A stretch of DNA of 43,647 nucleotides from a virus, in IMG/VR virus record IMGVR_UViG_3300035660_000027, positions 1-43,647 of that record; one strand, given 5' to 3'. The number at the start of each line of letters is the position of its first letter. Within the stretch, counting starts at the first letter, position 1. The translations under genes were made by a program, and so were the position numbers. Positions 1,436 to 21,674 of this stretch are shown here, piece by piece. The notes below the pieces were generated by a model. It searched no databases. It was not told where the DNA came from and saw only the letters and a program-made list of their open reading frames with translations.

Positions 1436-2979
1436 TATTTGCTCTCTAGCTTGGCAATGCGCTCGTGGAGCTGCGTGATGTAGATAAACGCTTCCTCTAG
1501 CTTCTCTAATATCTTATCTGTACGCTCGAAGGCGCCCATAGGCTCGTCGTGGATCCCTGGCAGGCGAAGGTCGCTCTCGAGCCTTTGATGCAGGTCATCG
1601 AGTGCAACCAGTCCTTGGTACTCTGCTGCCCCCTCGTTGTCCTTGTAACGCTCTATGCCGCCATGAAAGTAGCTCTCTAGCGCATAGTCCGGGTTGGTGT
1701 AGGCCCCGTTGTTCTTGTATATGTCACCCGCAGCGTTGAGTGTGCCTAGTCCTTTATCTCCACCAGTTGGACTGCCTAATTGAAGACCGGCACCGATTGA
1801 CATTAAGTCAGTTTTGGTTCCGGCTATTGCCGCTCCCCAACTCCACGAACAATCCTCTGATCCTCCAGTGGCATTATTGACGCGAAACTTATGAGTTCCG
1901 AGTGCGCTTCCACCTTTAATGTGAATGTCTTTTTGAAAACCGGCACTTACATAGATTGAGCCTAGTTCGTGAAGCTCATAACGAAAGCCAGGATTGGTCC
2001 AGAAATCCTGACTGAAGTAGTCTCCCCCCTCTTTTTCAAGCTCTGTGAAGGGAGCGCCAAATATGTTCGTATTCGTGTTGATTGTATAAGTTGAACTACC
2101 TAAAAGTTCTCCAGCGGCGTTCCCAGGGAGCGTGGTTAAGGTGCTCAGACCGCCCCGAAATGAGCCAGCGCACTCACCCAGAAATCTTTTTCCAGTGGCC
2201 GCGCCACTAAATGTGCTTCCCCAAAACAGACAAGCACTTCCCTCACTAGCATGAGCAAATGCAGTCGAGAATGCTGGTGTTCCAGTTAGGGTGTGAACAG
2301 TTTGTTCGATGTCGCAGTTACCAGACCCCTCCGAAACATACATAGTAGCCATGCTGCCACTAATCAAAATAGTGGATTGATAGGAAAGAACTTCCCCCAT
2401 ATACGCATGAACCCCGGTGCCTCCAATCATATTGCCAAACTCTAGATTAGCTTGATAGAAGACTACCCTTGCTCCAGGAGACTGATTTTTGATTGCATTT
2501 TTAGTTGTTGGTCCACTAAACTTTATGCCGTCAATACCAATTCCCCCTACAAAGCCGTTGATAAAAAATCCGTAGGTTCCTGTAATGTCGAACACTACAT
2601 TACCTGGATTTGCATGGTTTCCTAAAAAGTCTAATGAAACCGTCCCTCCTCCTATATCTACTATTGTGCTTCCACCATTGGAGTAAGTACCGTCAGCTAG
2701 TTTAATAGTTACACCAAATCCCGCAGAATCTACATTGGCTTGAATCCAATTCCAGGCATGTTGTGGAGTTTTCCATGGTAATGAGACTGACCCGTCACCG
2801 GTAACGTCATCCCCTGTCGTGGCGACATAGAACGTAGTATCCGCTATCAGTCCGCGCCGTACCGCAAGAGTGGTCCCATCAGACAAAACATGGTCATCGT
2901 TCCATGCTGACGGTCGAGCGATGGTGGCGTCGCCACTATCGACTTTGGGATTTACAAACCTATGTTTTACGGTTGCCAT
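1435..2979 (-). CDS. Tailspike-like protein with beta-helix signature
   Basis: The 514-residue protein begins at the ATG of MATVKHRFVNPK. An upstream in-frame ATG at 3030 would overlap the hydroxylase gene much more. The N-terminal segment KHRFVNPKVDSGDATIARPSAWNDDH resembles phage particle-attachment regions. It is followed by YVATTGDDVTGDGS ... PWKT and VTIKLADGTYSNGG, typical of the start of right-handed parallel beta-helix (pectin-lyase-like) tailspikes. The end (LEKLEEAFIYITQLHERIAKLESK region) is a short coiled coil suited to trimerisation. It is predicted to bind or degrade host surface polysaccharide. No catalytic residues can be assigned by eye. Confidence 0.75.
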   Translation of the reverse strand: MATVKHRFVNPKVDSGDATIARPSAWNDDHVLSDGTTLAVRRGLIADTTFYVATTGDDVTGDGSVSLPWKTPQHAWNWIQANVDSAGFGVTIKLADGTYSNGGSTIVDIGGGTVSLDFLGNHANPGNVVFDITGTYGFFINGFVGGIGIDGIKFSGPTTKNAIKNQSPGARVVFYQANLEFGNMIGGTGVHAYMGEVLSYQSTILISGSMATMYVSEGSGNCDIEQTVHTLTGTPAFSTAFAHASEGSACLFWGSTFSGAATGKRFLGECAGSFRGGLSTLTTLPGNAAGELLGSSTYTINTNTNIFGAPFTELEKEGGDYFSQDFWTNPGFRYELHELGSIYVSAGFQKDIHIKGGSALGTHKFRVNNATGGSEDCSWSWGAAIAGTKTDLMSIGAGLQLGSPTGGDKGLGTLNAAGDIYKNNGAYTNPDYALESYFHGGIERYKDNEGAAEYQGLVALDDLHQRLESDLRLPGIHDEPMGAFERTDKILEKLEEAFIYITQLHERIAKLESK

Positions 2980-3460
2980 GCTCACCCACAATATCAAACA
3001 TGAGATGAATCCTCGTCGCGTCACCAGCATTGCTTACGGCATGTGGTTTCGATGGGTTGACCTGATAGGACATGCCTACCTCCATGTGATGGGCTAACCC
3101 GTCAATCAGGAACCAAGTGTGAGGGTTGGTCACGATCGGCACATGGATGCGGGTTATCCAATCCGAGAAGCAGTTGTCAGTATGGTAGGGCACATAGTCG
3201 CCGGCGTTAAGAACCGTAATCGAGCGGGACGTGTCTTTGCACCCAGGAAAGTTGGGCATCAATTCGGACACAACACGATCTGTCTTGTCTTCCAAAAAGA
3301 GGGGATCGACCATGACATAAGGACGGTCATTGGATCCTTTGTCCCAGATCCGATTACCGATCCATTCTATCAAGTCATCGACTTCGACCGCAATAAGTGA
3401 ATTACAGGTGCCTGTAAATCGCTTAGTTAGCTTTGAGCCGCAAACGGCGCTCTCGATCAT
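2960..3460 (-). CDS. Aspartyl/asparaginyl beta-hydroxylase-like dioxygenase
   Basis: The 166-residue ORF carries the Asp/Asn hydroxylase signature: HTD (His93), RIHVP (104-108), HMEVG, then H140 and R150 in RIHLMFD. The spacings fit the two iron-binding histidines (about 46 apart) and the 2-oxoglutarate-binding arginine 10 residues after the second histidine. Such enzymes hydroxylate Asp or Asn side chains, or free substrates, using Fe(II) and 2-oxoglutarate. The first 25 or so residues look unrelated to the domain and lie partly inside the 3' end of the GIY-YIG gene. The native start may therefore have been displaced by that insertion; a shorter non-ATG start is possible. Confidence 0.75.
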   Translation of the reverse strand: MIESAVCGSKLTKRFTGTCNSLIAVEVDDLIEWIGNRIWDKGSNDRPYVMVDPLFLEDKTDRVVSELMPNFPGCKDTSRSITVLNAGDYVPYHTDNCFSDWITRIHVPIVTNPHTWFLIDGLAHHMEVGMSYQVNPSKPHAVSNAGDATRIHLMFDIVGEHGNRKT

Positions 3461-4049
3461 ATTTTGCTTTCTCAGTCTTATGGGCCAGAACGTACTCTTT
3501 CATTTTGGCAAGACGTGTTTCTCGATTATTAATATGATTGGCCCTAGATCGTTGTCGCCGCCACTCGCGCTGCTCAGGTGACTCAGATGCGTAAACACTC
3601 TGGACGCGAAGTGCATTACAGTCTCGGCAGATGCGCTTGCCTTGCTTGTTGCGGTAGGTATTCGCTTCGTCATAAGGGTGTCCTCGCGGGCAATGTGTGA
3701 TAAGTGCGGCACGGGCGCGAAGTGATGCTGCACGTTTTGCGAGCGTCTCTGGACTTAATCGCCGAGAAATATCGACAATTATATTGTAGTCCGGTTTTAG
3801 AGTGCTGACGTAAAACTGCTCGCGCGCCTCTAGCTCATCAACCGAACATTCCTCAAGTATGGAGAACTGAAAGCACTCCTCTCCATGCTTGTTCCACGCA
3901 CGCTGCAACCGAACACATCCACTGGCCCCACGCCGCAAGCTACGTCGATGCTCGTACCATCGCACGTAAATCTGCTTGCTTGAGCCAACGTAGAATTTGC
4001 CGGTTCGGTTGCAGCGTATCCGATAAATGCCGCTCTTTTGGTTTCCCAT
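3423..4049 (-). CDS. GIY-YIG homing endonuclease with zinc-binding tail
   Basis: The 208-residue protein, from ATG 4049, contains GIYRI near residue 7, FYVGSS near residue 19 and RWYEHR, the core of GIY-YIG nucleases. The conserved ELEAREQFYV segment follows. A CPRGHPYDEANTY ... CRDCNALR module (C-x3-H ... C-x2-C) resembles the zinc-binding element often joined to phage endonucleases, and the C-terminus is very basic for DNA binding. A GTG at 4058 would add three residues. It sits between virion and accessory genes and overlaps the hydroxylase ORF, consistent with a mobile intron-less endonuclease gene. Confidence 0.85.
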   Translation of the reverse strand: MGNQKSGIYRIRCNRTGKFYVGSSKQIYVRWYEHRRSLRRGASGCVRLQRAWNKHGEECFQFSILEECSVDELEAREQFYVSTLKPDYNIIVDISRRLSPETLAKRAASLRARAALITHCPRGHPYDEANTYRNKQGKRICRDCNALRVQSVYASESPEQREWRRQRSRANHINNRETRLAKMKEYVLAHKTEKAKYDRERRLRLKAN

Positions 4050-4099
4050 GCTTCGCACATTGGCATATTCCCCAATGACTTACAATAGGAAACATTTCC

Positions 4100-4609
4100 T
4101 CAGAACGGCTCGTACACGATATGAGCTCCCATCAAGCCCACAGAACCGCCGGTGAAGGCTGACAGGCTGGACTCGGAGACGTTCACGGAGATACCCGTTA
4201 TGCCCCATTCCTCACCAGGAGCCGCAACCCAACGAACGATGCCGCCGAAGGCATTAAACGAGAGGTTAAGCCGTGCCGCGGTCGTAGCAGCACTTCTTTG
4301 AGGAACCGTACCGGCTTGCACAGCGGTAATGGGAACCGCCGCCAGGGCCGCAGTTCTCGTGTCCATAGGACCATCCGATACCGGCCCCGCAAGAGCGGTA
4401 GGAATAGCCACCACGGTCGAGTCCCTTGCGAACATCATGATGTTGATGCTCGAAGCCGAGGCTTGCCCGCCTTCATAGATTTCAATGACGTTCAGGCCGG
4501 CAGTCGCTCCGGATGCGCCGATCGACATGAAGGTCGAGTTGGCAAGGTTGGTACCGTCCGCCGTTGCCGTTGGCGTCCATGTCGGGTTTTGAAAGATTCT
4601 CTTAGCCAT
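4100..4609 (-). CDS. Small beta-rich virion protein, unknown family
   Basis: The 169-residue protein is rich in Ala, Ser, Thr and Gly with few charged residues, starting MAKRIFQNPTWTPTATADGTNLAN. It is typical of phage decoration, collar or fibre-associated proteins. It lies immediately downstream of a glycosyltransferase gene (13-bp gap) and could be a substrate of it; this is inference. A GAGAAC purine run precedes the ATG. Confidence 0.6.
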   Translation of the reverse strand: MAKRIFQNPTWTPTATADGTNLANSTFMSIGASGATAGLNVIEIYEGGQASASSINIMMFARDSTVVAIPTALAGPVSDGPMDTRTAALAAVPITAVQAGTVPQRSAATTAARLNLSFNAFGGIVRWVAAPGEEWGITGISVNVSESSLSAFTGGSVGLMGAHIVYEPF

Positions 4610-4622
4610 TGTCTAGTTCTCC

Positions 4623-5423
4623 TTATGCCGCAGAGGCGGCGGTTTCAGCAAGCTCAGAAAGAGCAAGCGGGTTGCCTATAAACTTGTAATGCCCGAGATG
4701 GTTCAGCTCTATCCAAGGAGCAACCCACACCTTCATTCCAATCTTTCTTACGAGTTGACAAAAATGGTAGTCCTCTGAAAGATCGCGTCCATCTTTAATT
4801 GCTTCACTAAAATAACGTCCAATTTTGCTAGGCTTTCTCCCGCTTTCACGCCCATCGGAGTCGAAATACTCCTTTGGATAACATTCCCTGAACTTATCAA
4901 AAACATGCCGCTGAATCATCATAAATCCAGTGCCGGATTCAGTTACCTCGAGTGGCGAGTAAAAGTTGAAACTCCCATCTAAACCATGCGTATTAAAGAC
5001 TAGATCGCTGCCATACGATGACAAATCGCCGGTAATGCCACGACTGACCGCTGTTGCAACCTTGCTCCAGTTGATGTGCTTTTTAGGATACAAGCCACAC
5101 ACAACATCCTTATCCGATTTAGGGTCGGCTAAGGCTAAGAGACTGAAAACAGCATCAGGACTAAACTCTATATCTGCGTCGATGAACAGTAGATGCGTGC
5201 AATCACTGTGAAGGAACTCATGCACACAGAAGTTTCTCGCCCGCGTTACCCGACTTTCGTTGAACAGACAGAAATAGTCCATTCGCATATCGTTCTGCAT
5301 CATCACGGTTTTCAGTTGCAGAAGCGAGTTTGTGTAGAAGCCGAAGCACTGTCCGCCATACATCGGCGTGGCGACATACAATTTGCGGGCTTGCAGTTCC
5401 TCCCGCGAGATTCTGACTTTCAT
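4623..5423 (-). CDS. GT-A-type glycosyltransferase (paralogue 1 of 3)
   Basis: The 266-residue protein starts at MKVRISREELQ, where its ATG overlaps the TGA of the upstream methyltransferase (ATGA). A longer in-frame start at 5498 would lie inside that gene. LFIDADIEF is the DxD-type nucleotide-sugar/metal site of GT-A folds. The C-terminal block SEDYHFCQLVRKIG ... WIELNHLGHYKFIGNP matches the same block in the two paralogues at 16369 and 18352. It is predicted to transfer a sugar from an NDP-sugar. Donor and acceptor are unknown, but its place among virion genes suggests a virion protein or receptor glycan. Confidence 0.8.
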   Translation of the reverse strand: MKVRISREELQARKLYVATPMYGGQCFGFYTNSLLQLKTVMMQNDMRMDYFCLFNESRVTRARNFCVHEFLHSDCTHLLFIDADIEFSPDAVFSLLALADPKSDKDVVCGLYPKKHINWSKVATAVSRGITGDLSSYGSDLVFNTHGLDGSFNFYSPLEVTESGTGFMMIQRHVFDKFRECYPKEYFDSDGRESGRKPSKIGRYFSEAIKDGRDLSEDYHFCQLVRKIGMKVWVAPWIELNHLGHYKFIGNPLALSELAETAASAA

Positions 5424-5932
5424 GCTTTTTCCAGCACAACCGCGAAATGATGGTCCTCTATGACTTGAGCATAGGCCAGGTTGAAGTTCTTTTTCCAATA
5501 CCAGCGATAGTCGGTAATCGGCAAATTGGCGTCCAAGGTATTTTGATAGAACGCATTGTTCAAAAAGCCGAAGTGATTGGCGCTGAAAAACCTGGTATGC
5601 CCAGGATCAGCAAAGCGGTCATTGCCGATCGGAACTATGATGCCGAACAACCCGCCAGGTTTAAGGATGCGATGGTAGTCCGACATCTCATCGAAATACC
5701 CTCGCCAATCTCCCTGCCGGCCAAAATGCTCCAACACATCATAGGCGCCCATTTCATCAAAGGTGTCGTCAGGAAAGGGTAGAGGGTGTTTCTCTAGATC
5801 CCAAATGACATCGGCCCCGCAGTTAGGGTCCATGTCCATTGTCGTCAGCTCACCCGTCCAATCGCGGTTCTCTCCCAGAAACAGCTTCTTCTTCCTGGAA
5901 TTGCCACAGCCTAACAGGAGGCTTCTCTTCAT
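5420..5932 (-). CDS. SAM-dependent methyltransferase (paralogue 1 of 2)
   Basis: The 170-residue class I methyltransferase has LLLGCGNSRKKK (motif I), TMDMDPNC (motif II acidic), DVLEHF and RILKPGGLFGIIVP (motifs of the Methyltransf_11 type). A conserved DPGHTRFFSANHFGFLN segment is shared with the second copy at 17816. Both partners lie beside a glycosyltransferase gene, and this one overlaps its partner by ATGA. A plausible role is O-methylation of a transferred sugar or of a virion protein; the substrate is not readable from sequence. Confidence 0.8.
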   Translation of the reverse strand: MKRSLLLGCGNSRKKKLFLGENRDWTGELTTMDMDPNCGADVIWDLEKHPLPFPDDTFDEMGAYDVLEHFGRQGDWRGYFDEMSDYHRILKPGGLFGIIVPIGNDRFADPGHTRFFSANHFGFLNNAFYQNTLDANLPITDYRWYWKKNFNLAYAQVIEDHHFAVVLEKA

Positions 5933-6291
5933 GCTGGTTCGTCTGGTAACAAAACACGCGGACTGCCAAGCTGCATTTTTAAGCTCTCCTCCACCTTTGC
6001 CTCAAACGTCACATGGCTGTAATCAGCCCTAAGCATGTCGGCAGCGCAAAAGTCACAAATGTAGTGATAATTGCATTTTGGACAATTCGACCTTTCTCGC
6101 AGCCGAAGCGGGTTCTTTATCACCGCACATTTGCAGTGAGAGCATGTCAGGGTATCGGCCTCGAACAGCTTGCCTTCACCGCAAAACCTTGGATCCAACC
6201 CCGTCTTGATAGCCACATCCTCCGGCAAGCCGGGAGATGCCCGATGGTCGATCATCAGATAGCCATGCTGCTTCAGGGATTGGATGGTCAT
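5929..6291 (-). CDS. Conserved phage zinc-ribbon protein
   Basis: The 120-residue protein starts at MTIQSLKQHGYLMIDHRASPG, chosen because its ATG overlaps the preceding stop (ATGA at 6291-6288). It has two paired cysteine knuckles, CSHCKC and CPKCNYHYICDFC, giving at least one zinc ribbon. The HRASPGLPE opening followed by this zinc module is a combination I associate with small phage proteins located near fibre genes. The role is unknown. Genes on both sides are ATGA-coupled. Confidence 0.7.
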   Translation of the reverse strand: MTIQSLKQHGYLMIDHRASPGLPEDVAIKTGLDPRFCGEGKLFEADTLTCSHCKCAVIKNPLRLRERSNCPKCNYHYICDFCAADMLRADYSHVTFEAKVEESLKMQLGSPRVLLPDEPA

Positions 6292-6968
6292 GTAAGGTCG
6301 AGTTCCAACCACTCTAACTGCACCACGAACTTACGGGTGTCTGATCCCGTTCCACCTGTGGTCTGGTAAATCACGATACCCTCGCCGGGGCCGATCTCGA
6401 GGTCCATGCCGCGCTCATAAGCGATGGGTGACTTGGCAATGATCTGCTTGGATCCCCCTAACGCACCTACCGCGGTTGCCAGGCCGGGGATGGATAGGGC
6501 ACCGAAGTCATTGACGAGCGTTACCGTCATGCCCGTTACCGCGGTCTGGACAAGCATCTGGTTCGTGGCGCCGCCGGTCTTGTAGGGCAGGGCCGTAACG
6601 AGTCCACCCGAAGCTGTCCCGGTGAAGGTGAACTTGCTGAAGGAAATGACCGGGGCGGTTGGAAATGGCGTGGTGCCAAGAAAGTTATAGTCCGCGCTGA
6701 CCGCCCTAATAAGAGCCGTAGCTGTCGCCGTGAGCGGCATTTGCAGCCAGAAGAACCCTGTCGATGTCGCGTTCTGTGCCGCAGCAGCTACGGTCTGTTG
6801 CGTCGATGAGAAGAAATACTTGCCTAGAACCGTCATGCCAACGGTGGGCACCATAAAATGCTCATGGACGGTAACGCCACCAATAGACTTGGTTTCGGTC
6901 CTTACCTTCTTGCCGGCGTTCCCGGTATCATCAGGTAACTGGATATTGGAGGCTATCGGTGCGGTCAT
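6288..6968 (-). CDS. Virion structural protein, unknown family
   Basis: The 226-residue protein is low in charge and rich in Thr, Ala, Gly and Val. It begins MTAPIASNIQLPDDTGNAGKKVRTETKSIGGVTVHEHF, a pattern seen at the N-terminus of phage capsid- or tail-associated proteins. Motifs such as ERGMDLEIGPGEGI near the end suggest a beta-sandwich. It sits between a fibre/collar gene and the zinc-ribbon/methyltransferase cassette. It may be a decoration or fibre-base protein; this rests on composition and context. Confidence 0.6.
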   Translation of the reverse strand: MTAPIASNIQLPDDTGNAGKKVRTETKSIGGVTVHEHFMVPTVGMTVLGKYFFSSTQQTVAAAAQNATSTGFFWLQMPLTATATALIRAVSADYNFLGTTPFPTAPVISFSKFTFTGTASGGLVTALPYKTGGATNQMLVQTAVTGMTVTLVNDFGALSIPGLATAVGALGGSKQIIAKSPIAYERGMDLEIGPGEGIVIYQTTGGTGSDTRKFVVQLEWLELDLT

Positions 6969-6977
6969 ATGAGTATC

Positions 6978-10707: not shown

Positions 10708-10718
10708 GAATTATTATC

Positions 10719-11504: not shown

Positions 11505-11516
11505 GCCCTTGATCCT

Positions 11517-11783
11517 TTACGGCTCGGTCGCCATAACTTGAACTACACCTGTAGCAAAAATGACGCATATCTGTGACTTACCTGCACCGTTGTCCCGGCA
11601 GAACACTCGTCCCGTATTGGCCGGCCCGTTGACAGGATCGGTTATCTCGGAGATTTCGATATAGGACTGCCGGATGTCCGGTCTGGTCGGCAGCGCCCAT
11701 TCCCAGAAATAGCGATACCACGGCAAGGCCATCCTGCCGCTTTTCTCGGACAAAGGCGTATCTGGTGGTGGTAGCGCCGTCAT
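11517..11783 (-). CDS. Small virion protein with fibre-type C-terminal module
   Basis: The 88-residue protein has an N-terminal segment ALPPPDTPLSEKSGRMALPWYRYFWEW, of a kind common in small phage structural proteins, and a C-terminal half (GPANTGRVFCRDNGAGKSQI ... FATGVVQVMATEP). That half matches the end of the fibre-like protein at 272-1435. The ATG overlaps the stop of the ATP-grasp gene (ATGA). It is probably a virion component; the shared module may be an assembly or attachment element. Confidence 0.6.
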   Translation of the reverse strand: MTALPPPDTPLSEKSGRMALPWYRYFWEWALPTRPDIRQSYIEISEITDPVNGPANTGRVFCRDNGAGKSQICVIFATGVVQVMATEP

Positions 11784-13156
11784 CTGCGTCCTAGAGCCTC
11801 AGAGAGATCGTCTGACAGGCTTTTCTTTCTTCCCGATAACAGGGAAGCCAAAGAGTTTGTGTCCTCCTTGGCCTCCTCTGCCTCGTCTGGAGTCGCATCG
11901 GAGAACAAGTCAATGCCAAAGTCAGCTAGTTTCTTGATTTCACCTACCGCCTCGTCCAAACTGTCTTGCATGGAGTGTATACAGTATCCCTCGACCTGAT
12001 CCGCCACCTTCTTGACGTTGGCGATAGCTTCCTCCATCGTGTCGCCTAATGCAACCGCGGCGCCGATCTCCGGCAGTCCTACGGCTTGAGGCACGACATA
12101 ATTTCGCCCGTTCAGCATGGTTCGATTGCGGAGCTTGACGCTGTTAGCGAGTGATTTCGGAAACTCAACCGCTTGCCAGTTGGAGTCGGCCCATTGACTG
12201 TGAAGAAGCAGCTCGGCACCCCACGGCGCCGCAAATTCAGGTTCGACCAGCTCACCAGCCGCACCGTGCCATATCACGTCGGCGAGGTTGGTAATCATGG
12301 TCTGAAACAACTCCCCCGGCGGACTACCCATCCGGCAACAGGGATCTATGGAATATGCAATACCGTCCTTGGTTATCCTGAGTTCATTGGCAAAGAAGTT
12401 ACGGTAGCGGAAGGCGCGGAGAGTAGAACTTATCTTTGCGTTCGTCTCTCTGATCTGGTCCGGTAACTCCTTATAAGGCTTCGTCGTCATAATCAAACAA
12501 CGGTCCTTGACCTCGATGCCGGCCATCGCGTTCTGCATGAACTTGCCGTCGATCGAGTAGCCGTCATAGGAAACCTCGACCGCATCGTCGATCGCATCCT
12601 CGACAATGAACTCCAGCACGTTTTTCTTGGCCCCTAGCTTGTACTCCATCTCGTCCAACTGTGGCTCGGTCAGCTTGTAGTTCTTGGAGCAGAACGTCTC
12701 CATATCCCCCCTTGTTTTGGATACCTTGACGTAGACGTTCTTGTGGTCCTTCAGGTACTCCCTCAAATTATCCAGACCCTTGACGATCTTGTAGCCGCCT
12801 ACGTCGATGCCAACCGACTCCATGTGTCCCTTGGCCCAAACGCGGTCGAGCTCCAGATCCTCGCCCATGCGAGAACCCCACACGCGCTTGCCTAGCGACT
12901 CCAAGTGAATCTGCTCCGGCCCCTTGTACACATCAGGGTACACGAACAGGTCGATCTCATCGAGATAAGGCCAGATCGAGTCGATGCGAGTGACCCCTGG
13001 AAGCCCCTTGCCGATCAGGACCGAATTGCTCTTCGGGAATGCCGACTCCCAGGGGCAGGTGTAGAATACGTCCTTGAAATGCGGGGCCAAGGTAACGGCA
13101 AGCTCTACGAATAGCCCGTTATCGACCACACATGCTGTCTTGGACTTGAGGCTCAT
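11780..13156 (-). CDS. ATP-grasp ligase-like enzyme
   Basis: The 458-residue protein has PurD/carboxylase-type ATP-grasp features. These are a lysine-bearing strand (NVYVKVSKTRGDMETF), an acidic adenine-side strand (LEFIVEDAIDDAVEVSYDGY) and a metal/phosphate site FFANELRI ... YSIDPCCRMGSPPGE, with the expected E ... D-P-x-x-R pattern. A C-terminal VALGDTMEEAIANVKKVADQV resembles the small domain ending PurD-like enzymes. About 60 charged residues follow as a tail. Such enzymes join a carboxylate to an amine or thiol with ATP. It is ATGA-coupled to the AdoMet-decarboxylase-like gene upstream, suggesting a two-step pathway. Substrates are unknown. Confidence 0.7.
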   Translation of the reverse strand: MSLKSKTACVVDNGLFVELAVTLAPHFKDVFYTCPWESAFPKSNSVLIGKGLPGVTRIDSIWPYLDEIDLFVYPDVYKGPEQIHLESLGKRVWGSRMGEDLELDRVWAKGHMESVGIDVGGYKIVKGLDNLREYLKDHKNVYVKVSKTRGDMETFCSKNYKLTEPQLDEMEYKLGAKKNVLEFIVEDAIDDAVEVSYDGYSIDGKFMQNAMAGIEVKDRCLIMTTKPYKELPDQIRETNAKISSTLRAFRYRNFFANELRITKDGIAYSIDPCCRMGSPPGELFQTMITNLADVIWHGAAGELVEPEFAAPWGAELLLHSQWADSNWQAVEFPKSLANSVKLRNRTMLNGRNYVVPQAVGLPEIGAAVALGDTMEEAIANVKKVADQVEGYCIHSMQDSLDEAVGEIKKLADFGIDLFSDATPDEAEEAKEDTNSLASLLSGRKKSLSDDLSEALGRR

Positions 13157-13521
13157 GCGTTCCCCGGTAGGCTTAGTGATCCGCTCATAGAGTCAATCAC
13201 CACCAACTCCTGATCGACTTCCAGCCAATGAACGACTTGCCGCTCATCGAACTTCTTGCAGGAGTTGATCGCAAAATACACCCCGTCATGGTCAGGCCAG
13301 GTATCAATGGTCAGAAAGCTCTCGGTAATCGGCTGCACCATCGTCAAGCCGTTGCCACCTTTGTCGTTGACGGGATAGCGCCAGGTCTGAGGAAGGCCGG
13401 TGGCATTCATGTTCATCAACTTAGCGGCGTCCCATAAAAATGTTCGCCACTGCGGCTCGGTTTTCGTGCCCCGTAAGGAAAGAGATAAAACCCAAATGCG
13501 CCGTCCAAATTCCTCAGTCAT
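13153..13521 (-). CDS. AdoMet decarboxylase (SpeD)-like protein, altered processing site
   Basis: The 122-residue protein contains ITESFLTIDTWPDHDGVYFAINSC, closely resembling the pyruvoyl-enzyme core of bacterial AdoMet decarboxylases (ES-H-L-x-I-H-T-W-P-E ... C). By that alignment Glu67-Ser68 is the self-cleavage pair and Cys88 matches the conserved acid/base cysteine, with exactly the family spacing. The processing histidine is replaced by Asp73. Length fits the short bacterial class. The activity may be changed or lost. It is ATGA-coupled to the ATP-grasp gene and follows the gp10-like gene by 13 bp. Confidence 0.6.
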   Translation of the reverse strand: MTEEFGRRIWVLSLSLRGTKTEPQWRTFLWDAAKLMNMNATGLPQTWRYPVNDKGGNGLTMVQPITESFLTIDTWPDHDGVYFAINSCKKFDERQVVHWLEVDQELVVIDSMSGSLSLPGNA

Positions 13522-13534
13522 CTAATGGCAACCC

Positions 13535-15052
13535 CTATTTCTCCGTGAAAAACGCCGTCATGTTGCTGCCACCGCCAACCAACCCGAAATGCACCGCGGA
13601 CGGCACCGCTAGACGCCACCGGCGCCCCTGCGGGCCTGACATCCCGGTGCGGCGTACCGTAATTCTCCGTAGGGACTTTTGCTGACGCCCCAACTCCCGA
13701 AACCGGGGATTCGACCAAGTAACCCCACCGTCATTAGACCATGACACTTCCGCATAAGGGTTGGTCTGGTCAGGGTCATGCCCGTCGATTATCCCTACTC
13801 CGGTGGTAAACTCGAAATCTGCCCTATGTACCGTGACAAACGCCGGGAAGTCCTCGACCGGCAGACTCTCGATCTCAGGGATGAACGGTTGATCGACTTC
13901 CTTGTACACGGTGCTGTCGATTTCCAGCATTCGCCCTTGAGCCAGGGTATCCCCGCAAAGCCAGGTATTGAAGGCAAAGACCGAACCCGTCAGCCTCGAG
14001 CGGGTGCTGAGATAGGATTTGCGCTCATGCCAGCGTGACTTCCCAATATCGGGCTCCAGGCAAAGCACCCAACTAAACTCGTCATTGGAAATCTGAAAGA
14101 ACGGCACACCGTCAGAGACGTAAACCAAAGCCTCTAAATCCGCGGTAGCACCTTTAATCAACCGTTGTAGTTGCGGTGGTGAAACGTCGATCGGCTGCGA
14201 GGTCTGCAACTGCCTTACAGTGTAATCAGAGGCGACATATAACGGCGGCTGACCGAACTCAGGCTCGAATCCCGCAACGGCATGATGGTTAATCAATCCA
14301 GGGGTCATGTTGAACCCCTGCCGGCTTAACGGAAATCCAGTAGGGTTGATCGGCGGACCCCACGTTTCGATGGTGGAGTTTCCCATGACGTACAGATAGC
14401 CGTTGTACGAAACGAGCTGGATCACTCCATCTGGGTCTGAGTTGGCATTCGCCAGGTTGAGCGTGTTGATCGTCGTGACGTTTACGTTGGTCGATAACAG
14501 ATTTCCATTGCCATACCCGAAAATGAGGAACCCATAAATACCGACAACACAGGTCGGAGAGCCTACATTTATATCAGGGTATGCAGAGATCGAGGTCGTC
14601 GTAACTGAGAATGTTCCGGCTTGGCACACCAGAACAATGTCGGGAGTCGGGGCCTTGTTGTTTCTGGCAAAGAAGACCTTATCGGTCCCGGAAACCGCGC
14701 CTATCTTGGTTGATGCACCGCCTTGAACGATCGTCCAAACAAACTCGCCAAACACCCCATACAGGACATTGTTTACGAAAATACCCCCGCGGTACACCCC
14801 GGTAGGAAGCGGCACGGTTTGTCCGGTAGCGAAAAACGGCTCGAAAGGCGTCCAGTACGTCCAGCCTAACGCGGTAGCCGTTTGTGACCCATATGCCGTC
14901 ACACCGGGAGATCGGTGGTAGATAGCCCCCGATTTCTCTCCTATCGGCTCGGCATAGCAGTTAATCAGCCGGCCGGAGTTCTCCTGCGGCTTGATGCCGG
15001 GAGACGTGGAAAGCGGCCAGATGATAGGGGTTCCATCGGTTTTTTTAGCCAT
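13535..15052 (-). CDS. P22 gp10-like head-completion / DNA-stabilisation protein
   Basis: The 505-residue, beta-rich protein contains WPLSTSPGIKPQENSGRLINCYAE, YHRSPGVTAY and SRQGFNMTPGLINHHAVAGF, all typical of P22 gp10-like packaged-DNA stabilisation proteins (tail hub). Trp/Tyr-rich blades follow (STIETWG, YVASDYTVRQL). It caps the portal after packaging. It follows the gp4-like gene by one base, the same order as in P22-type neck modules. Confidence 0.8.
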   Translation of the reverse strand: MAKKTDGTPIIWPLSTSPGIKPQENSGRLINCYAEPIGEKSGAIYHRSPGVTAYGSQTATALGWTYWTPFEPFFATGQTVPLPTGVYRGGIFVNNVLYGVFGEFVWTIVQGGASTKIGAVSGTDKVFFARNNKAPTPDIVLVCQAGTFSVTTTSISAYPDINVGSPTCVVGIYGFLIFGYGNGNLLSTNVNVTTINTLNLANANSDPDGVIQLVSYNGYLYVMGNSTIETWGPPINPTGFPLSRQGFNMTPGLINHHAVAGFEPEFGQPPLYVASDYTVRQLQTSQPIDVSPPQLQRLIKGATADLEALVYVSDGVPFFQISNDEFSWVLCLEPDIGKSRWHERKSYLSTRSRLTGSVFAFNTWLCGDTLAQGRMLEIDSTVYKEVDQPFIPEIESLPVEDFPAFVTVHRADFEFTTGVGIIDGHDPDQTNPYAEVSWSNDGGVTWSNPRFRELGRQQKSLRRITVRRTGMSGPQGRRWRLAVPSAVHFGLVGGGSNMTAFFTEK

Positions 15053-15053
15053 A

Positions 15054-15446
15054 TCATTGACTGATGATCGGATCCCTGATTGCCGTGCCTCGAGCAGCCC
15101 GCTCGATCACCATGACTTGCGGGGTTTTGGTCGGTACCCCTAAACGTCTCAAAACACCCTCAGACGCAGCCTTGCCCGCTTCGCCGGTCGCCGCGCTCAT
15201 AACCCCAAACGCCGGCCCGATGGCAAACCCCATCCTGCGAGACAGCTCGGTGAAATAAATCTCGTTGATGGAGTCGATCGTGGAGGCTTGGAAGATAATC
15301 CCGTCAGCCAACATGCGGGCGTATTCGGACCTTAGCGTTTCCAGAACGTAGTTCATGTCCTCGGACGCAGGGGTTTCGTCCGCGGCAATGATGTTCAAAT
15401 CCCGGAGCGTGCGAATCGCTAAATCGTTTGTCGTGAATTGGGTCAC
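15054..15446 (-). CDS. P22 gp4-like head-tail connector
   Basis: The 130-residue helical protein starts MTQFTTNDLAIRTLRDLNIIAADETPASED and has ALxx-type helices followed by INEIYFTELSRRMGFAIGPAFG. This is characteristic of gp4-type tail accessory/adaptor factors that bind the portal ring. P22 gp4 is somewhat longer. The neighbouring gp10-like gene supports the assignment. The start overlaps the upstream stop by ATGA. Confidence 0.75.
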   Translation of the reverse strand: MTQFTTNDLAIRTLRDLNIIAADETPASEDMNYVLETLRSEYARMLADGIIFQASTIDSINEIYFTELSRRMGFAIGPAFGVMSAATGEAGKAASEGVLRRLGVPTKTPQVMVIERAARGTAIRDPIISQ

Positions 15447-15625
15447 TGTTTGAGCATCTGCATCATCATCTGCACCAGCATCATAGCCCCTTGTGGGCCA
15501 ATACGCTGAATGATGCCCTGTGCGAGCTGCTGAAGCATTTGAGGGTTAGGCTGTTGCGGAGCACCTTGTTGCGGAGGAGCGCCTTGCGGGGCGCCGCCCA
15601 TCAATCCCATCATTCCATCGGGCAT
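15443..15625 (-). CDS. Met/Gln/Pro-rich small protein
   Basis: The 60-residue protein is of strikingly low complexity: MPDGMMGLMGGAPQ, a PQQ-rich middle and a C-terminal amphipathic helix IIQRIGPQGAMMLVQMMMQMLKQ. It is ATGA-coupled to the gp4-like gene. The family is not recognised. Similar small Met/Gln-rich proteins occur next to neck genes in related phages and may be assembly factors or virion components. Confidence 0.6.
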   Translation of the reverse strand: MPDGMMGLMGGAPQGAPPQQGAPQQPNPQMLQQLAQGIIQRIGPQGAMMLVQMMMQMLKQ

Positions 15626-15638
15626 GGTGTTTCCTTAT

Positions 15639-15815
15639 TTATGGGTACAGAGTACCGACGATGAAATCAGCCAGGGTCCGTCGCCATTGCCCAACAGATT
15701 CATTCTTGGGTTGAGGAACGACGATACTCAAGCCGCTCGATGAGTTTCCCGCAGAGCCGGCAAGCGTCATGGTGCCGTCAGCGTTGCTGGTTGCCGTCAG
15801 GGTAATGGTTGCCAT
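15639..15815 (-). CDS. Mini beta protein 1 of a four-gene cluster
   Basis: The 58-codon ORF starts MATITLTATSNADGTMTLAGSAGN and ends in an amphipathic segment VGQWRRTLADFIVGTLYP. The start shares the NADGT turn between two beta strands with its neighbour at 15821. It is too short for many gene finders but fits exactly between flanking genes on the late strand. Role unknown, possibly a small decoration protein. Confidence 0.6.
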   Translation of the reverse strand: MATITLTATSNADGTMTLAGSAGNSSSGLSIVVPQPKNESVGQWRRTLADFIVGTLYP

Positions 15816-15820
15816 GTCGC

Positions 15821-16006
15821 TTACTCAGGCAGCGATAGGACAGTGGCAATCACGCTCTTCAGACCTTGCACGAGGCGCTTGGTCTGGCCGGCGGACGTGG
15901 TGCAGTTCACAACATGCTGACCCCAGGAAATTCCTGCCGTGGTGGAGCATAGCGCATCAACGGAACCGTCAGCATTGGAAGTGAGTACGATCGTGCAGGT
16001 CGCCAT
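15821..16006 (-). CDS. Mini beta protein 2 of a four-gene cluster
   Basis: The 61-residue product, MATCTIVLTSNADGSVDALCSTTAG..., shares the SNADG turn with mini protein 1 and ends in a helix RLVQGLKSVIATVLSLPE. A GGAGAA run precedes its ATG. Spacing to both neighbours is 5-12 bp, consistent with one polycistronic message. Function unknown. Confidence 0.6.
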   Translation of the reverse strand: MATCTIVLTSNADGSVDALCSTTAGISWGQHVVNCTTSAGQTKRLVQGLKSVIATVLSLPE

Positions 16007-16018
16007 AGTAGTTCTCCT

Positions 16019-16192
16019 TTAACGCATGTTCTCTTTGATGATCTTGGCAATCTCGTTCGCAATCGACGTTGCCGATCCGTACAAGGTCGTAGACGGCGTA
16101 TCGACGGTTGCGGTGAGATTGTATGTTCCGGGTGCGGTCGCCGTCATGTCGGCGGGATTCGTCACCACGATGGTCATAGGGCCGAAAGCCAT
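16019..16192 (-). CDS. Mini beta protein 3 of a four-gene cluster
   Basis: The 57-residue product, MAFGPMTIVVTNPADMTATAPGTYNL..., ends ANEIAKIIKENMR. Strand-turn-strand followed by a short C-terminal helix mirrors the other three members, though sequence identity is low. Its ATG lies within 10 bp of the upstream stop, with an AGGAGG-like sequence between. Function unknown. Confidence 0.6.
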   Translation of the reverse strand: MAFGPMTIVVTNPADMTATAPGTYNLTATVDTPSTTLYGSATSIANEIAKIIKENMR

Positions 16193-16202
16193 GTCATGCC
16201 TC

Positions 16203-16376
16203 CTAAGTGAGTTTCAACAGAGGAATGGATTGACCAACCCATCCCTTTGCGATGTTCATAAGCCTCCCCAAACTTTGGGTGGTAACAGTCTGTCCGGCAC
16301 TTCCACCACCGGAGGCCGTTGAAATCGTTGCGGTGCCGTCGCCGTTATCGGTAAATGTAATGGCAAGACTAGCCAT
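16203..16376 (-). CDS. Mini beta protein 4 of a four-gene cluster
   Basis: The 57-residue product, MASLAITFTDNGDGTATISTASGGG..., has an NGDGT turn equivalent to NADGT in members 1 and 2 and a C-terminal helix LGRLMNIAKGWVGQSIPLLKL. It overlaps the end of the glycosyltransferase gene at 16369 by 8 bp. Probably a virion-associated small protein. Confidence 0.6.
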   Translation of the reverse strand: MASLAITFTDNGDGTATISTASGGGSAGQTVTTQSLGRLMNIAKGWVGQSIPLLKLT

Positions 16377-17040
16377 CTCGTTTCTCCTTGTTTATTGCGT
16401 CTCTCAAGAAATTACCGTGCCATGACTTCCTGCCATAATGGCCGAAATCAATATCCGGGTCCACATAGATCATACCCCCGATTTGCTTCCAACGCTTGCA
16501 AAACGAGAAATCCTCCCCGATCGGCACCCCATCCACAATCATCGTGTCCCACAGCATGTGAATGTCCCTGCCGCGGTAGTTAGCCTTCAATTCAGGGTAC
16601 GCCTCTTGCAGTTTCTCCATCGCGCGTCTGGTGATCTTGATAAACCCCCCGCCAACGGCTGAAGTTTCCACCAAGATAGGCTTGTCTGACTTGGGAGCGG
16701 GACCGTTTAGCTTGATGTGGAACTCAGGATCCCCGTCCTTCTTGATCGGGTATGCCCCACCCATAATTTCGAGCGGAGCCTCCAGAATCCTCACAAACCC
16801 CTCCGGGTCCCAGGACAGGTCGGCGTCGATGAAAAATAGGACATCGCAGTCGGAATCCATGAAATCCTGGCCGATAATCGCCCTGGCATAAGGAATGAGG
16901 GAGTTGCCGCTCATCCCGTTGGTTTGCACCGTCCAGCCCTTCTGTGCCGCCAGGACAATGCTGTGAATGTACGAATTGTGGTAATCCAGCCACACATCTC
17001 CGCTCAAGGACGGAGTGCCTATCATGACTTGTTTGCTCAA
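16369..17040 (-). CDS. GT-A-type glycosyltransferase (paralogue 2 of 3)
   Basis: The 223-residue protein has FFIDADLSW as the DxD site, GGGFIKITRRAMEKL, and the shared C-terminal block GEDFSFCKRWKQIGG ... PDIDFGHYGRKSWHGNF. It is clearly paralogous to the products at 4623 and 18352. The ATG overlaps the stop of the structural gene upstream (ATGA). It is predicted to be a sugar transferase acting in the cytoplasm during assembly or on a precursor. The acceptor is unknown. Confidence 0.8.
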   Translation of the reverse strand: MSKQVMIGTPSLSGDVWLDYHNSYIHSIVLAAQKGWTVQTNGMSGNSLIPYARAIIGQDFMDSDCDVLFFIDADLSWDPEGFVRILEAPLEIMGGAYPIKKDGDPEFHIKLNGPAPKSDKPILVETSAVGGGFIKITRRAMEKLQEAYPELKANYRGRDIHMLWDTMIVDGVPIGEDFSFCKRWKQIGGMIYVDPDIDFGHYGRKSWHGNFLRDAINKEKRDG

Positions 17041-17819
17041 GCAGCTCTCGTATGAACCGTTACCGTGTGTGTCCCGTTAGATGCTCCGGCATACGTCCCT
17101 ACCGTCACCAGCACGCCCCACAGGCTTGAACTGATTAGCTTGACCTGCTTGGCGAGGCCGCTCATTTCAATGTAGAGAATATCCCCGTAGTCAACCGGGG
17201 CAGAGATCGGGATTGCTCCGAGATATTTGGGCGCGTCCGACGCCGACAACGAAAATGTCGCCTCGTCCGCAGGGGCGCTCGGAGGCGTGGCGTTGTATAA
17301 ATGCAACACGAAACTGGTCATTGTCGCCGGTACCGTAGCCAAATCGAACCTTAGAGAGACTGCCGTTACCAGATATTGCCCCGCCGCTCCGACATTGGCA
17401 AACTCCATAGCCGCCGCGGCAGCGCCTACCACGTCATTCACGCCATAGGTGTTGGTGTTGGTGGGTCGTGTGACATCGACTGCCGCCGAATATGCCTTGC
17501 TTGCCGTGGTGACGTTGAACGTCTCGGCCCCACTGGACACCATCAGGGAACCACGAGCCGACATGGCCCATGATGCCTCCTGGCCGTCCGTAAGGGTCTT
17601 TTGTGTGGCATTGTAACGCCCGCCCGTCACCAGGGACGTTGTTGCCGCTGCCGCACCGGGGGCTACATTAGTGGCCGAAGTCAGCAGTCGGGATGTATAG
17701 GACTCCAAGGTAGCCATATCGGCAACGACGCTTGCCGTGGTCGGCAGGGGATTTGCCGTGCTGACATGGGTAAAAACATTGGGGGCATCTTCAAACTCAA
17801 GTATCGTCCTGTTCGTCAT
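17037..17819 (-). CDS. Virion structural protein between glycosyltransferases
   Basis: The 260-residue protein is rich in Ala, Thr, Ser and Val: MTNRTILEFEDAPNVFTHVSTANPLPTT, VTGGRYNATQKTLTDGQEASW, FVLHLYNATPPSAPADEATFSLSASDAPKYLG. The second half resembles an all-beta surface domain. It is ATGA-coupled to a methyltransferase upstream and to a glycosyltransferase downstream, making it the best-placed candidate substrate for both. That role is inference. Confidence 0.65.
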   Translation of the reverse strand: MTNRTILEFEDAPNVFTHVSTANPLPTTASVVADMATLESYTSRLLTSATNVAPGAAAATTSLVTGGRYNATQKTLTDGQEASWAMSARGSLMVSSGAETFNVTTASKAYSAAVDVTRPTNTNTYGVNDVVGAAAAAMEFANVGAAGQYLVTAVSLRFDLATVPATMTSFVLHLYNATPPSAPADEATFSLSASDAPKYLGAIPISAPVDYGDILYIEMSGLAKQVKLISSSLWGVLVTVGTYAGASNGTHTVTVHTRAA

Positions 17820-18340
17820 ATCTTCATCCTTGACGGTTTAATGGCTTGCATCACATAGATGAACGTGTCGCCCTCGGTTTTGAAGCACAACTGCTGAAAG
17901 TCGGCTTTGTAGCAAAATCGGTAATCACTCATCGGAGTAACCCCGACTTGCTCGGTGTACGACACCTGATTGAGAAACGTCAGGGTTTCCGCCGAAATGG
18001 CCCTGGTGTGCCCAGGATCGCCCCACAGCCAGTTACTTGTAAGGCTTGGTGACGTACCGGCAAAGAACCCCCCCGGCTTCAGCAGCCTCCAGAACTCGCT
18101 CCATAGCTCGAAAAACGTCTTGAAATCACCCTGAGTTCCTAAATGTTCCAAAACCTCATAGGCATGAATCTCATCGAAAATGCCCTCGGCAAACGGTAAC
18201 GGCAGATTTCTCAAATCATGCACCACATCAGGATTGTGGTCGGCATTGAAATCTAGCGTGACCAATTCCTGCCAATCAGGCTTCTCAGGCGTGCTCAACA
18301 GCTTTTGGTGACGTGAGCCGCACCCCAACAACAGTTCCAT
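17816..18340 (-). CDS. SAM-dependent methyltransferase (paralogue 2 of 2)
   Basis: The 174-residue protein has LLLGCGSRHQKLL, VTLDFNADHNPDVVHDL, AYEVLEHLG and RLLKPGGFFAGTSP, followed by DPGHTRAISAETLTFLNQ. It aligns along its length with the methyltransferase at 5420-5932. It lies 11 bp after a glycosyltransferase and is ATGA-coupled to the structural gene at 17037. It likely methylates a sugar or protein; the substrate is not known. Confidence 0.8.
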   Translation of the reverse strand: MELLLGCGSRHQKLLSTPEKPDWQELVTLDFNADHNPDVVHDLRNLPLPFAEGIFDEIHAYEVLEHLGTQGDFKTFFELWSEFWRLLKPGGFFAGTSPSLTSNWLWGDPGHTRAISAETLTFLNQVSYTEQVGVTPMSDYRFCYKADFQQLCFKTEGDTFIYVMQAIKPSRMKI

Positions 18341-18351
18341 TCAAGACCCCT

Positions 18352-19023
18352 CTATGCTCTCGATTTCAGCCATTCTCCTAGATTGCCGACGAACGTCTTG
18401 TAGCCGGTGTGGCCCATCTTGACATCGGGCAGAACGAATATCTCCCCGCCAATGTCACGCCAGCGGTTGCAAAACGAATAATCCTCGCTGTATTTCAGCT
18501 TGTCCTTGCGATAAGGGTCGAACAGCGCCCATGCCTTCTTGTCCGGCGCCGGATCGCACATGAACTCCAAATCAGCGTAGTAGTTCACCATCCTGGTCAG
18601 CATCTCGCGTGAGCATCGAGTGCAGCCCATCGGTACGCCCCACACCTTGATAAGTCCAGCCTCGTTCGCCCATAACTCCGTTTCTGACAGGTCAAACGAT
18701 ACCGGATAGGTCATCAAGTCGTTGCGATGCGAATAGACAGCCGCCACGCAATCCACCGGAGCATCCACCAGCCTCAACAGCGTACCGGATTCCCAAGTCA
18801 CATCGGAATCGACAAACACCATGTCGGTGCAGTCGCTTGCCAGGAACTTAGCCACCATGAGAGCTCGGGCGTCACCTAACAGGGTATTGCCGCACTCGTC
18901 ATGGACGACAAACGAATCCCCCCGGCAATGGAGAGCTAAAAGGTCAGTCAAAAGACTGCGGAACGTGCCGATATGAATCTGGCCCGTATACGCGGGAAGA
19001 GCTATCCAGACGTTTTTCGGCAC
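18352..19023 (-). CDS. GT-A-type glycosyltransferase (paralogue 3 of 3)
   Basis: The 223-residue protein starts MPKNVWIALPAYTGQIHIGT. VFVDSDVTW is the DxD-like site and SEDYSFCNRWRDIGG ... PDVKMGHTGYKTFVGNL is the C-terminal block common to all three glycosyltransferases here. It also has WGVPMGCTRCSREMLTRM, corresponding to GGGFIKITRRAMEKL in paralogue 2. Placed between coat-associated genes and a methyltransferase, it forms a GT/methyltransferase cassette. Confidence 0.8.
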   Translation of the reverse strand: MPKNVWIALPAYTGQIHIGTFRSLLTDLLALHCRGDSFVVHDECGNTLLGDARALMVAKFLASDCTDMVFVDSDVTWESGTLLRLVDAPVDCVAAVYSHRNDLMTYPVSFDLSETELWANEAGLIKVWGVPMGCTRCSREMLTRMVNYYADLEFMCDPAPDKKAWALFDPYRKDKLKYSEDYSFCNRWRDIGGEIFVLPDVKMGHTGYKTFVGNLGEWLKSRA

Positions 19024-19040
19024 GTTCCGTCTTACGAACC

Positions 19041-19247
19041 TTAGGCAGTAAGGCCAACCAGTTTCAGAAACGTGATGATGGAATTGACCACCGGCACGAT
19101 GTCCGTGGCTGTAGCCGCCGCCGATGCAGTCGTTAGTGCGATGTTCTGCACGATAGGCGTTGCACCGTAGAACCCCACTTTGTCGGCAGCAGCCTGACCA
19201 AGAGAGGTTCCATCGGTATTTTTGTTAGAGAGATATACAACTGGCAT
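19041..19247 (-). CDS. Small coat-associated protein
   Basis: The 68-residue protein, MPVVYLSNKNTDGTSLGQAAADKVGFYGATPIVQ..., lies directly after the coat gene (12-bp gap). The TDGTSLGQ ... DKVGFYGATP motif recurs in small proteins encoded near phage capsid genes. A hydrophobic, Ala/Thr-rich C-terminus follows. A minor capsid or decoration role is plausible but unproven. Confidence 0.6.
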   Translation of the reverse strand: MPVVYLSNKNTDGTSLGQAAADKVGFYGATPIVQNIALTTASAAATATDIVPVVNSIITFLKLVGLTA

Positions 19248-21344: not shown

Positions 21345-21674
21345 ATGAAGAAAGGTCGCCCATCAAAACCAATCTGTAAATGTGGCTTACCAAAAATTAT
21401 TAGCTCCAAGGGTAAGTCAAAAGGGTATTGTAACAACTGTTTTCTAGAATGGCAGAGAAATTATCGAAAATCATACAAAGCTAAACCCCATCAAAGAGAA
21501 AAAATCAGAGCAAGATCCTATGCTGATTATTACAAGCGCAGAGGAGATCTAACTCCACAACCATGCGAAAAATGCGGATCATTTCCATCAGAAATGCACC
21601 ACGATGATTATAACAAGCCCTTAGAAGTTAGGTGGCTATGCCGCACTCACCATCTTGAGCACCATAAAACCTAA
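21345..21674 (+). CDS. HNH-type endonuclease gene on the opposite strand
   Basis: The 109-residue, basic protein has two cysteine-pair modules, C11-x-C13 ... C29-x2-C32 and CEKCG (74-78). These are followed by [20 protein letters not shown], the beta-beta-alpha-metal HNH-like core (H85/H86, C99, H102/H103). It is the only rightward gene within the 35-kb late unit and is visibly more AT-rich than its neighbours. It ends 4 bp into the portal 3' end, facing it. This fits a recently acquired homing-type endonuclease between portal and scaffold genes. Confidence 0.8.

Follow-up and report, generated by a model that had tools for sequence, protein, structure and literature searches.

The 43,647 bases of IMG/VR virus record IMGVR_UViG_3300035660_000027, taken as a complete record and referred to below as the window, form a P22-like podovirus contig with its late genes on the minus strand. 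Eight open reading frames (ORFs) for modification enzymes lie on that strand among the virion genes: three GT-A glycosyltransferases (GT1 to GT3), two S-adenosylmethionine (SAM)-dependent methyltransferases (MT1 and MT2), a PurD-like ATP-grasp ligase (ATPg), a divergent homologue of the AdoMet decarboxylase SpeD (AMDC) and an Asp/Asn beta-hydroxylase (Table 1). Comparison with related contigs shows that the GT and MT genes are a recurrent unit beside the capsid gene, that ATPg and AMDC are another unit, and that the hydroxylase is separate. With moderate confidence we read these as three independent things, a cassette for glycosylation of the virion, an amine-ligation module and a lone hydroxylase. 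A preliminary description of this DNA had predicted the same eight enzymes, which are borne out by Pfam and PHROG matches and by the folds of the products of 18352 and 11780; the single route of hydroxylation, glycosylation and methylation to which it had assigned them is not.

The linkage of the GT and MT genes to the capsid gene was followed in two sets of related contigs, one being the best 80 of at least 578 stretches with a capsid relative, chosen without bias to any enzyme, and the other consisting of 80 loci selected by their MT. All 16 contigs of the latter set that carry both capsid and MT have a GT of the phrog_1574 type at 16 nt or less from the MT, and in many related contigs a GT-A gene, often together with an MT, is situated between the capsid and head-closure genes. 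The gene order in these relatives is scaffold, capsid, small protein, in some cases a GT, MT, GT, a gene resembling that at 15054, and head closure. A GT was found in 16 and an MT in two (both with a GT) of the 46 capsid-selected contigs that extend 3.5 kb or more beyond the capsid gene.

The small protein encoded between capsid and GT is mostly 67–105 residues long in its family and is marked by a LGQSATDKVGFYGATP-like motif. In a few members there is similarity to phrog_20838 'head fiber protein' (3.6e-4) or to phrog_29706 'tail spike protein' (1.3e-4), which makes a role like that of a head fibre plausible, with weak support; apart from one short match, no relative was found in deposited phages. 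The occurrence of the GT follows that of the small protein, since, of the capsid-selected contigs, 24 of the 38 that encode the small protein also have a GT, against only one of the 35 that lack it. On a capsid tree of 90 rows the presence of the GT changes about 20 times, with at least 13 changes on supported branches, and phylogenetically independent pairs associate GT and small protein by 7:0 (median sign-test p 0.016). The link between the two is thus not a matter of common descent alone. The acceptors proposed in the preliminary description, the products of 4100, 6288 and 17037, fared less well. Their genes are not conserved beside the GTs, whereas the small-protein gene at 19041 is; in the 46 capsid-selected contigs a 17037-like gene was found once (a 17037 relative in locus L186 lies 3' of the capsid gene), and a 4100- or 6288-like gene never.

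The small proteins split into two types at a single position, which is either aromatic (FYG, FFG, FWG) or His/Cys, and the two types are accompanied by different enzymes. Where either enzyme was found, the aromatic type had the GT-A enzyme in 36 cases and the alternative enzyme in none, whereas the His/Cys type was accompanied in eight cases by another protein, about 235 residues long, and in one by the GT alone; one of these eight, locus L169 (FHG), possesses both enzymes. A Fisher test, not corrected for descent, gives 4e-8 for the association between small-protein type and enzyme, and tree-based pairs give 3:0. In four of six contigs the alternative enzyme gives a match to PF01973 (MptE-like), with E-values from 5e-8 to 5e-4, but its best score of 26.5 bits is under the curated cut-off of 34.6, hence it is named MptE-like only. 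We take the MptE-like domain family PF01973 to include the Maf flagellin glycosyltransferases. A PDB profile search with an alignment of the MptE-like proteins gave chance-level matches only, and the protein is absent from the window. The small protein of the window has FYG (Tyr27), and GT3 comes next to it, in agreement with the rule.

How completely such a cassette can be exchanged is illustrated by loci L210 and L213, which are 99.4–99.8% identical in long flanks on both sides of it. Just 3' of the capsid gene they carry non-homologous alleles (8954-10501 in L210, 9925-10886 in L213), one with an FYG small protein and a GT and the other with an FHG small protein and an MptE-like protein; the swap begins 39 bases past the capsid gene and ends at the next gene. 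Our reading of this pattern is that the small protein would serve as acceptor and that each type would have its own cognate transferase. That Tyr27 is the sugar-bearing residue is a guess, and the position may only be near the site. The GT ORF of L210 (9191-10501) encodes 436 amino acids, about twice the usual length, and may include an extra domain.

All three GTs match phrog_1574, a family annotated as 'unknown function', and have DxD motifs (FIDADI, FIDADL and FVDSDV). Structure prediction, which the preliminary description had proposed for each enzyme, gave a GT-A fold for GT3 and a PurD-like fold for ATPg. The GT3 model (pLDDT 96.6) was confirmed as GT-A by a PDB fold search, with A197 of Sulfolobus turreted icosahedral virus (STIV) as best match (8.3e-10), followed by LH3 (a lysyl hydroxylase with a glycosyltransferase part), mimivirus R699 and the collagen galactosyltransferase COLGALT1 and, at lower rank, by ppGalNAc-T1 and the PBCV-1 capsid glycosyltransferase. 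Its neighbours in this search are protein glycosyltransferases, several of them viral. Profiles of the MTs matched no PDB chain at 0.01.

The GTs and the MTs had been described as sets of paralogues, which holds as far as membership of the same families (phrog_1574 and PF08241) is concerned. Recent duplication as their origin is not supported, the GTs being only 24–26% identical to each other and having closer relatives outside. Each GT and MT2 is closer to proteins of other viruses than to its paralogues in the window, and MT1, 43% identical to MT2, is about equally distant from MT2 and from outside MTs (43–45% identity). The identity of GT3 to GTs encoded beside the capsid gene in relatives reaches 61%, that of MT2 to the MTs there reaches 65%, and GT2 is 41% identical to the second GT of locus L091. 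Judged by these distances, the GTs and MTs appear to be old co-residents and not recent duplicates. The reported ATGA-type coupling was confirmed, with four-base overlaps (ATGA or TTGA) at MT1-GT1, 5929-MT1, AMDC-ATPg, ATPg-11517, MT2-17037 and 17037-GT2; the start of GT1 was corrected from 5498 to the ATG at 5423, which overlaps MT1.

This ATGA-coupled MT1-GT1 pair (4623-5932) has its closest paired relatives in the MT-GT pairs of loci L103 and L104. In 54 of the 80 MT contigs there is no GT within 1 kb, and in six solitary-MT contigs inspected by eye the neighbours resemble DNA-metabolism genes; GT1 relatives occur among replication genes in Sinorhizobium phages. The GTs and MTs thus look like mobile enzymes, of which the target may vary between phages.

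The other three enzymes do not travel with this cassette. Neither ATPg nor AMDC nor the hydroxylase was found in the 46 capsid-selected contigs. Among 40 cassette or capsid relatives searched as whole records, ATPg was found in none, in a search that had no internal positive control though the ATPg model matches other loci, and PF05118, the hydroxylase family, was likewise found in none, with controls matching in only 1 of 14 genomes. Conversely, the 73 ATPg loci contain no MT and no P22-like capsid, and a GT is present in only three of them and in one of 12 whole ATPg records. The eight enzymes are therefore not one co-inherited set. The preliminary description had made its proposal depend on the genes occurring together in related phages; this failed for three of the eight and held for the GT and MT genes. 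The arrangement does exceed chance, as two sub-sets recur as units in other viruses, and glycosylation of a virion protein is, on the basis of linkage and fold, a good reading for the GTs and MTs, not for all eight.

The second unit is the AMDC-ATPg pair. AMDC matches PF02675 above the cut-off (35.4 bits versus 25), and the pyruvoyl-forming Ser68 and Cys88 (Ser63 and Cys83 in Thermotoga maritima numbering) are invariant in the alignment. The catalytic His68 of SpeD, which is essential for processing (PMC10407285), corresponds to Asp73 in the window protein and in 38 aligned relatives, and to Glu in locus L080 (by eye). Because of this replacement AMDC is taken as a diverged SpeD homologue and is not classed as an AdoMet decarboxylase (SpeD class 1b); no spermidine synthase (PF01564) was found in the record. 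ATPg matches no Pfam family. Its model (pLDDT 90) matches glycinamide ribonucleotide (GAR) synthetase/PurD over the full length (E 7.5e-21, TM 0.69/0.74), which upholds the ATP-grasp identity proposed earlier for 11780, and a profile of 27 sequences matches PurD chains (3.9e-5). Lys144, Glu258, Asp271 and Arg275 are invariant in these 27 sequences; the Glu-x-Asn metal motif of PurD is replaced by Asp271-x-Cys273, and at the third metal-ligand position the family has Cys or Thr, rarely Met or Leu, and not Asn. ATPg is probably an ATP-grasp ligase and is not filed as PurD. No full-length fold match to it was found in BFVD.

The 73 ATPg loci comprise 65 viral loci and eight genome contigs (L043 and L078 are the same contig, a prophage of Bradyrhizobium YR681). 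A single-sequence search of viral contigs with ATPg found nothing, and the 65 loci were reached only with a two-sequence profile seeded from an AMDC match; in genome contigs a scan with a thin profile found no relatives and a second scan found the eight. AMDC is positioned directly 5' of ATPg in 40 of the 73 loci, often with a four-base overlap. Its place is taken in L026, L027 and L033 by a more canonical SpeD homologue (PF02675 4.7e-17 for L026) and in L071 by a gene for an arginine-deiminase fold (3752-4984; PF02274 2.8e-9), while another seven loci are truncated on the 5' side. The replacement of AMDC by other enzymes acting on amines or guanidines suggests production of an amine by the pair, followed by its ligation. 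In the uncultured phages and prophages to which its known occurrence is confined, the pair is mostly situated between terminase and portal, with P22-type and SU10-type portals and terminases among the Pfam matches of its neighbours and a portal-like gene 0.2–2.5 kb 3' of ATPg in 39 of the 73 loci. A tblastn search with AMDC, ATPg and a distant ATPg member against 50,697 deposited phages gave no match, and a search of the available literature found no paper on the pair.

Some further observations were made around ATPg. The 88-amino-acid product of the ATPg-coupled ORF at 11517-11783 and that of 272-1435 share a tail-type end, their C-terminal 49 residues being 49% identical. A small protein of 120–180 amino acids with a His-Glu motif resembling a metal site (such as HELLE or HEAVE) is encoded 5' of ATPg in L049, L057, L060 and L084 and 3' of it in L079, often where AMDC is missing; the copy in L049 has no Pfam match. 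Very acidic ORFs of 41–43 amino acids precede ATPg directly in L025, L067 and L070 and could encode peptide substrates or be mere small virion genes. In the ATPg neighbourhoods (65 aligned proteins) one neighbour matches an O-antigen ligase domain (Wzy_C 6.9e-11), and ADP-ribosyltransferase, zeta-toxin and GNAT acetyltransferase domains were also found.

The beta-hydroxylase matches PF05118 above the curated cut-off (43.4 bits versus 22.6), is weakly similar to a beta-hydroxylase structure and has HTD at 93, PHAVSN at 139 and RIH at 150, as read from the sequence, putative places of the two metal-binding His and the 2-oxoglutarate Arg. Limnohabitans phage DC33 encodes a distant relative, as does Mycobacterium phage LilMcDreamy, there next to the terminase genes; a single-sequence search of viral contigs found nothing. 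It would be a singleton outside the cassette, to which we assign no partner. A spring-water podovirus (L012) has an annotated 2OG-Fe(II) oxygenase (18551-19162) beside scaffold and capsid genes, and PF05118 does not match that record.

The following picture can be envisaged. The glycosylation cassette would consist of the small protein 19041, GT3, MT2 and GT2, with the second MT-GT pair at 4623-5932. GT3 would move a sugar from a host nucleotide-sugar onto the small protein displayed on the head, the further GTs possibly extending the glycan and an MT modifying or capping the sugar, and small protein and transferase would be inherited and exchanged as a pair. Separately, the SpeD-derived decarboxylase would make an amine from an amino acid, and the PurD-like ATP-grasp enzyme would join that or a related amine to a carboxylate, the acceptor perhaps being a head or portal protein or a small molecule used in packaging. 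The beta-hydroxylase would act on its own.

Other explanations for the GT and MT genes have to be considered. The single pathway of eight enzymes to a capped glycan could draw on the position of all eight genes within 16 kb of one late region, with several of them coupled, and on the resemblance of the GT3 fold to two hydroxylysine glycosyltransferases, LH3 and COLGALT1, whose action follows that of a hydroxylase; however, Asp/Asn hydroxylases differ from lysyl hydroxylases, and the co-occurrence data largely refute this pathway, which we regard as highly improbable. DNA hypermodification by GTs of viruses is known (Pyle 2024, as cited in PMC12619734), and with GT1 relatives amid replication genes and many MT relatives alone in a DNA-metabolism-like region, the GTs and MTs could modify phage DNA bases and be in the late region by chance. 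Against this, the GT gene comes immediately after that of the capsid and its occurrence follows that of a small head-fibre-like protein, the fold is nearest to protein glycosyltransferases, and no base-premodifying enzyme was found among the ten largest right-half proteins, a search in which small ORFs were not scanned and the contig may be incomplete; we find DNA modification improbable. Similarly low are the chances that the enzymes alter host surface glycans (O-antigen or receptor) for superinfection block or progeny release: serotype-conversion GTs of phages are well known (PMC12619734), but the late position within structural genes and the pairing with a small capsid-adjacent protein do not fit, and no transmembrane or lipid-carrier partners were seen in the cassette. 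A more serious competitor, although still rather unlikely, is plain linkage, in which small protein and GT would be exchanged together simply as neighbours and not as substrate and enzyme. Any recombination event whose breakpoints flank the two genes would move them together, and informative independent switches are few (4:0 and 3:0). Yet with about 20 GT switches on the capsid tree a GT without the small protein is exceptional (1/35), and two non-homologous enzymes sort by residue type (36:0 versus 1:8), with L169 (FHG) carrying both.

For the AMDC-ATPg pair, a supply of polyamine or an amine conjugate for DNA packaging, rather than protein modification, is a possibility that we judge doubtful. 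The frequent portal-like gene 3' of ATPg, the terminases among its neighbours and the importance of polyamines for phage replication (PMC9992855) are in line with it. On the other hand, the window lacks a spermidine synthase and its AMDC the essential His, the window pair is situated behind head closure and does not adjoin the portal, and in L081 and L084 the pair stands beside tail-type genes. Bolder, and in our opinion unlikely, is the idea that the pair represents a new phage virion aminylation, with amine supply by a neofunctionalised SpeD-fold enzyme and ligation by the PurD-like ATP-grasp enzyme onto a protein of head, portal or tail, and common among uncultivated phages and prophages, and that P22-like phages in addition swap whole acceptor-transferase cassettes in which enzyme (GT-A or Maf-like) and head-fibre motif (FYG or FHG) change in one step.

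Several results weigh against our own preference for a virion glycosylation cassette beside an amine-ligation module. The similarity of the small protein to head fibres is weak, and the tree-corrected tests of residue versus enzyme draw on few pairs (4:0 and 3:0, p 0.125 and 0.25). Both GT and MT are missing from about half of the capsid relatives, and the cassette is therefore dispensable. In other phages, members of the MT and GT families are also found alone or amid DNA-metabolism genes, so that a virion protein need not be the target everywhere. Compared with known glycosyltransferases, GT3 reaches TM-scores of about 0.5, which gives the enzyme class and does not fix sugar and acceptor. 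Finally, AMDC lacks the His that is essential for self-processing of SpeD and may not be an active decarboxylase.

It is useful to compare these systems with known ones. STIV A197 is a GT-A enzyme of an archaeal virus, proposed to glycosylate the STIV capsid (PDB 2c0n; PMC10551542). It shares with GT3 the GT-A fold, being the best PDB match of both the GT3 model and the GT profile (1.2e-6), and is likewise a small single-domain viral enzyme with a DxD motif; it differs in sequence (about 16% identity to GT3), in stemming from an archaeal virus with another capsid fold, and in having an acceptor that is itself only proposed and no paired small protein described. Mycobacteriophage GTs are thought to modify capsid or tail subunits (Freeman 2023, as cited in PMC12619734 and PMC11256854). 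According to these citing accounts, they too are phage-encoded with virion subunits as supposed targets, whereas the phages and the gene layout are different and it is the major capsid or tail tube protein that is modified at the C-terminus, the proposed acceptor in the window being a distinct small protein that would form a pair with its enzyme. Maf flagellin glycosyltransferases glycosylate a surface protein (PMC11339370, PMC4065374). The alternative enzyme of FHG-type relatives resembles them through PF01973, but it is a sub-cut-off match of only about 235 amino acids, in phages, and not in the window. The GT/MT cassette would be a variant of phage virion glycosylation, with pairing of acceptor and enzyme. 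Compared with SpeD and its phage offshoots SpeDA and SpeDC (PMC10407285, PMC9992855), AMDC keeps PF02675, the pyruvoyl-forming Ser and the catalytic Cys, whereas its clade has Asp for His and it is coupled to the gene of an ATP-grasp ligase and not to polyamine genes. ATPg has the fold of PurD (PDB 2yw2) over its whole length and keeps both acidic metal ligands and the Arg, and differs by Cys/Thr for the Asn ligand, 13–16% identity and a phage late-gene context. The AMDC-ATPg pair may be a new kind of system.

Glycosylation of the phage virion has been shown in very few phages, and here a common uncultured P22-like group shows a recurring pairing of proposed acceptor and enzyme immediately after the capsid gene. 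Since L210 and L213 are near-identical natural variants that differ in little but the cassette, the pairing is directly testable. The AMDC-ATPg pair is conserved in phages of several types and lends itself well to biochemical study.

The host of the window phage is likely alphaproteobacterial, because deposited relatives nearest to GT1 include Sinorhizobium, Ochrobactrum, Caulobacter and Stenotrophomonas phages, 17037 relatives are mostly found in Rhizobium phages, and an ATPg relative is present in Bradyrhizobium.

Table 1 Enzymes, proposed acceptor and landmark genes of the window
Feature	Position	Strand	Basis or remark
Asp/Asn beta-hydroxylase family protein, singleton	2960..3460	-	PF05118 4e-11
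GT1, GT-A glycosyltransferase, second MT-GT pair	4623..5423	-	phrog_1574 1.3e-50
MT1, SAM-dependent methyltransferase, second MT-GT pair	5420..5932	-	PF08241 2.3e-5, above cut-off
ATPg, PurD-like ATP-grasp ligase, ATGA-coupled to AMDC	11780..13156	-	fold
AMDC, divergent SpeD (AdoMet decarboxylase) homologue	13153..13521	-	PF02675 1.4e-8
Head closure protein	13535-15052	-	phrog_578
GT2, GT-A glycosyltransferase, possible chain extension	16369..17040	-	phrog_1574 4.6e-23
Beta-rich putative virion protein, 260 aa, coupled to MT2 and GT2	17037..17819	-	role inferred
MT2, SAM-dependent methyltransferase	17816..18340	-	PF08241 4.8e-6, above cut-off
GT3, GT-A glycosyltransferase, proposed first transferase	18352..19023	-	phrog_1574 4.6e-14; fold
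Small head-fibre-like protein, 68 aa, FYG type (Tyr27), proposed acceptor	19041..19247	-	family just 3' of capsid gene
P22-like major capsid protein, cassette anchor	19260..20510	-	phrog_283 4.9e-91
Portal-like ORF	21671-23824		
Terminase, weak match	25401		
N6/N4 DNA methylase	26729		

Two endonuclease genes lie between virion genes, one of the GIY-YIG type at 3423-4058 (PF01541 2.3e-11) and one resembling HNH enzymes at 21345-21674 (by eye), and both are probably homing elements. At 40437-42602 a protein of 721 amino acids is encoded that has no Pfam match and is made up of repeats like DWPNPRGYxRxxxWTDSFKLPLTT.

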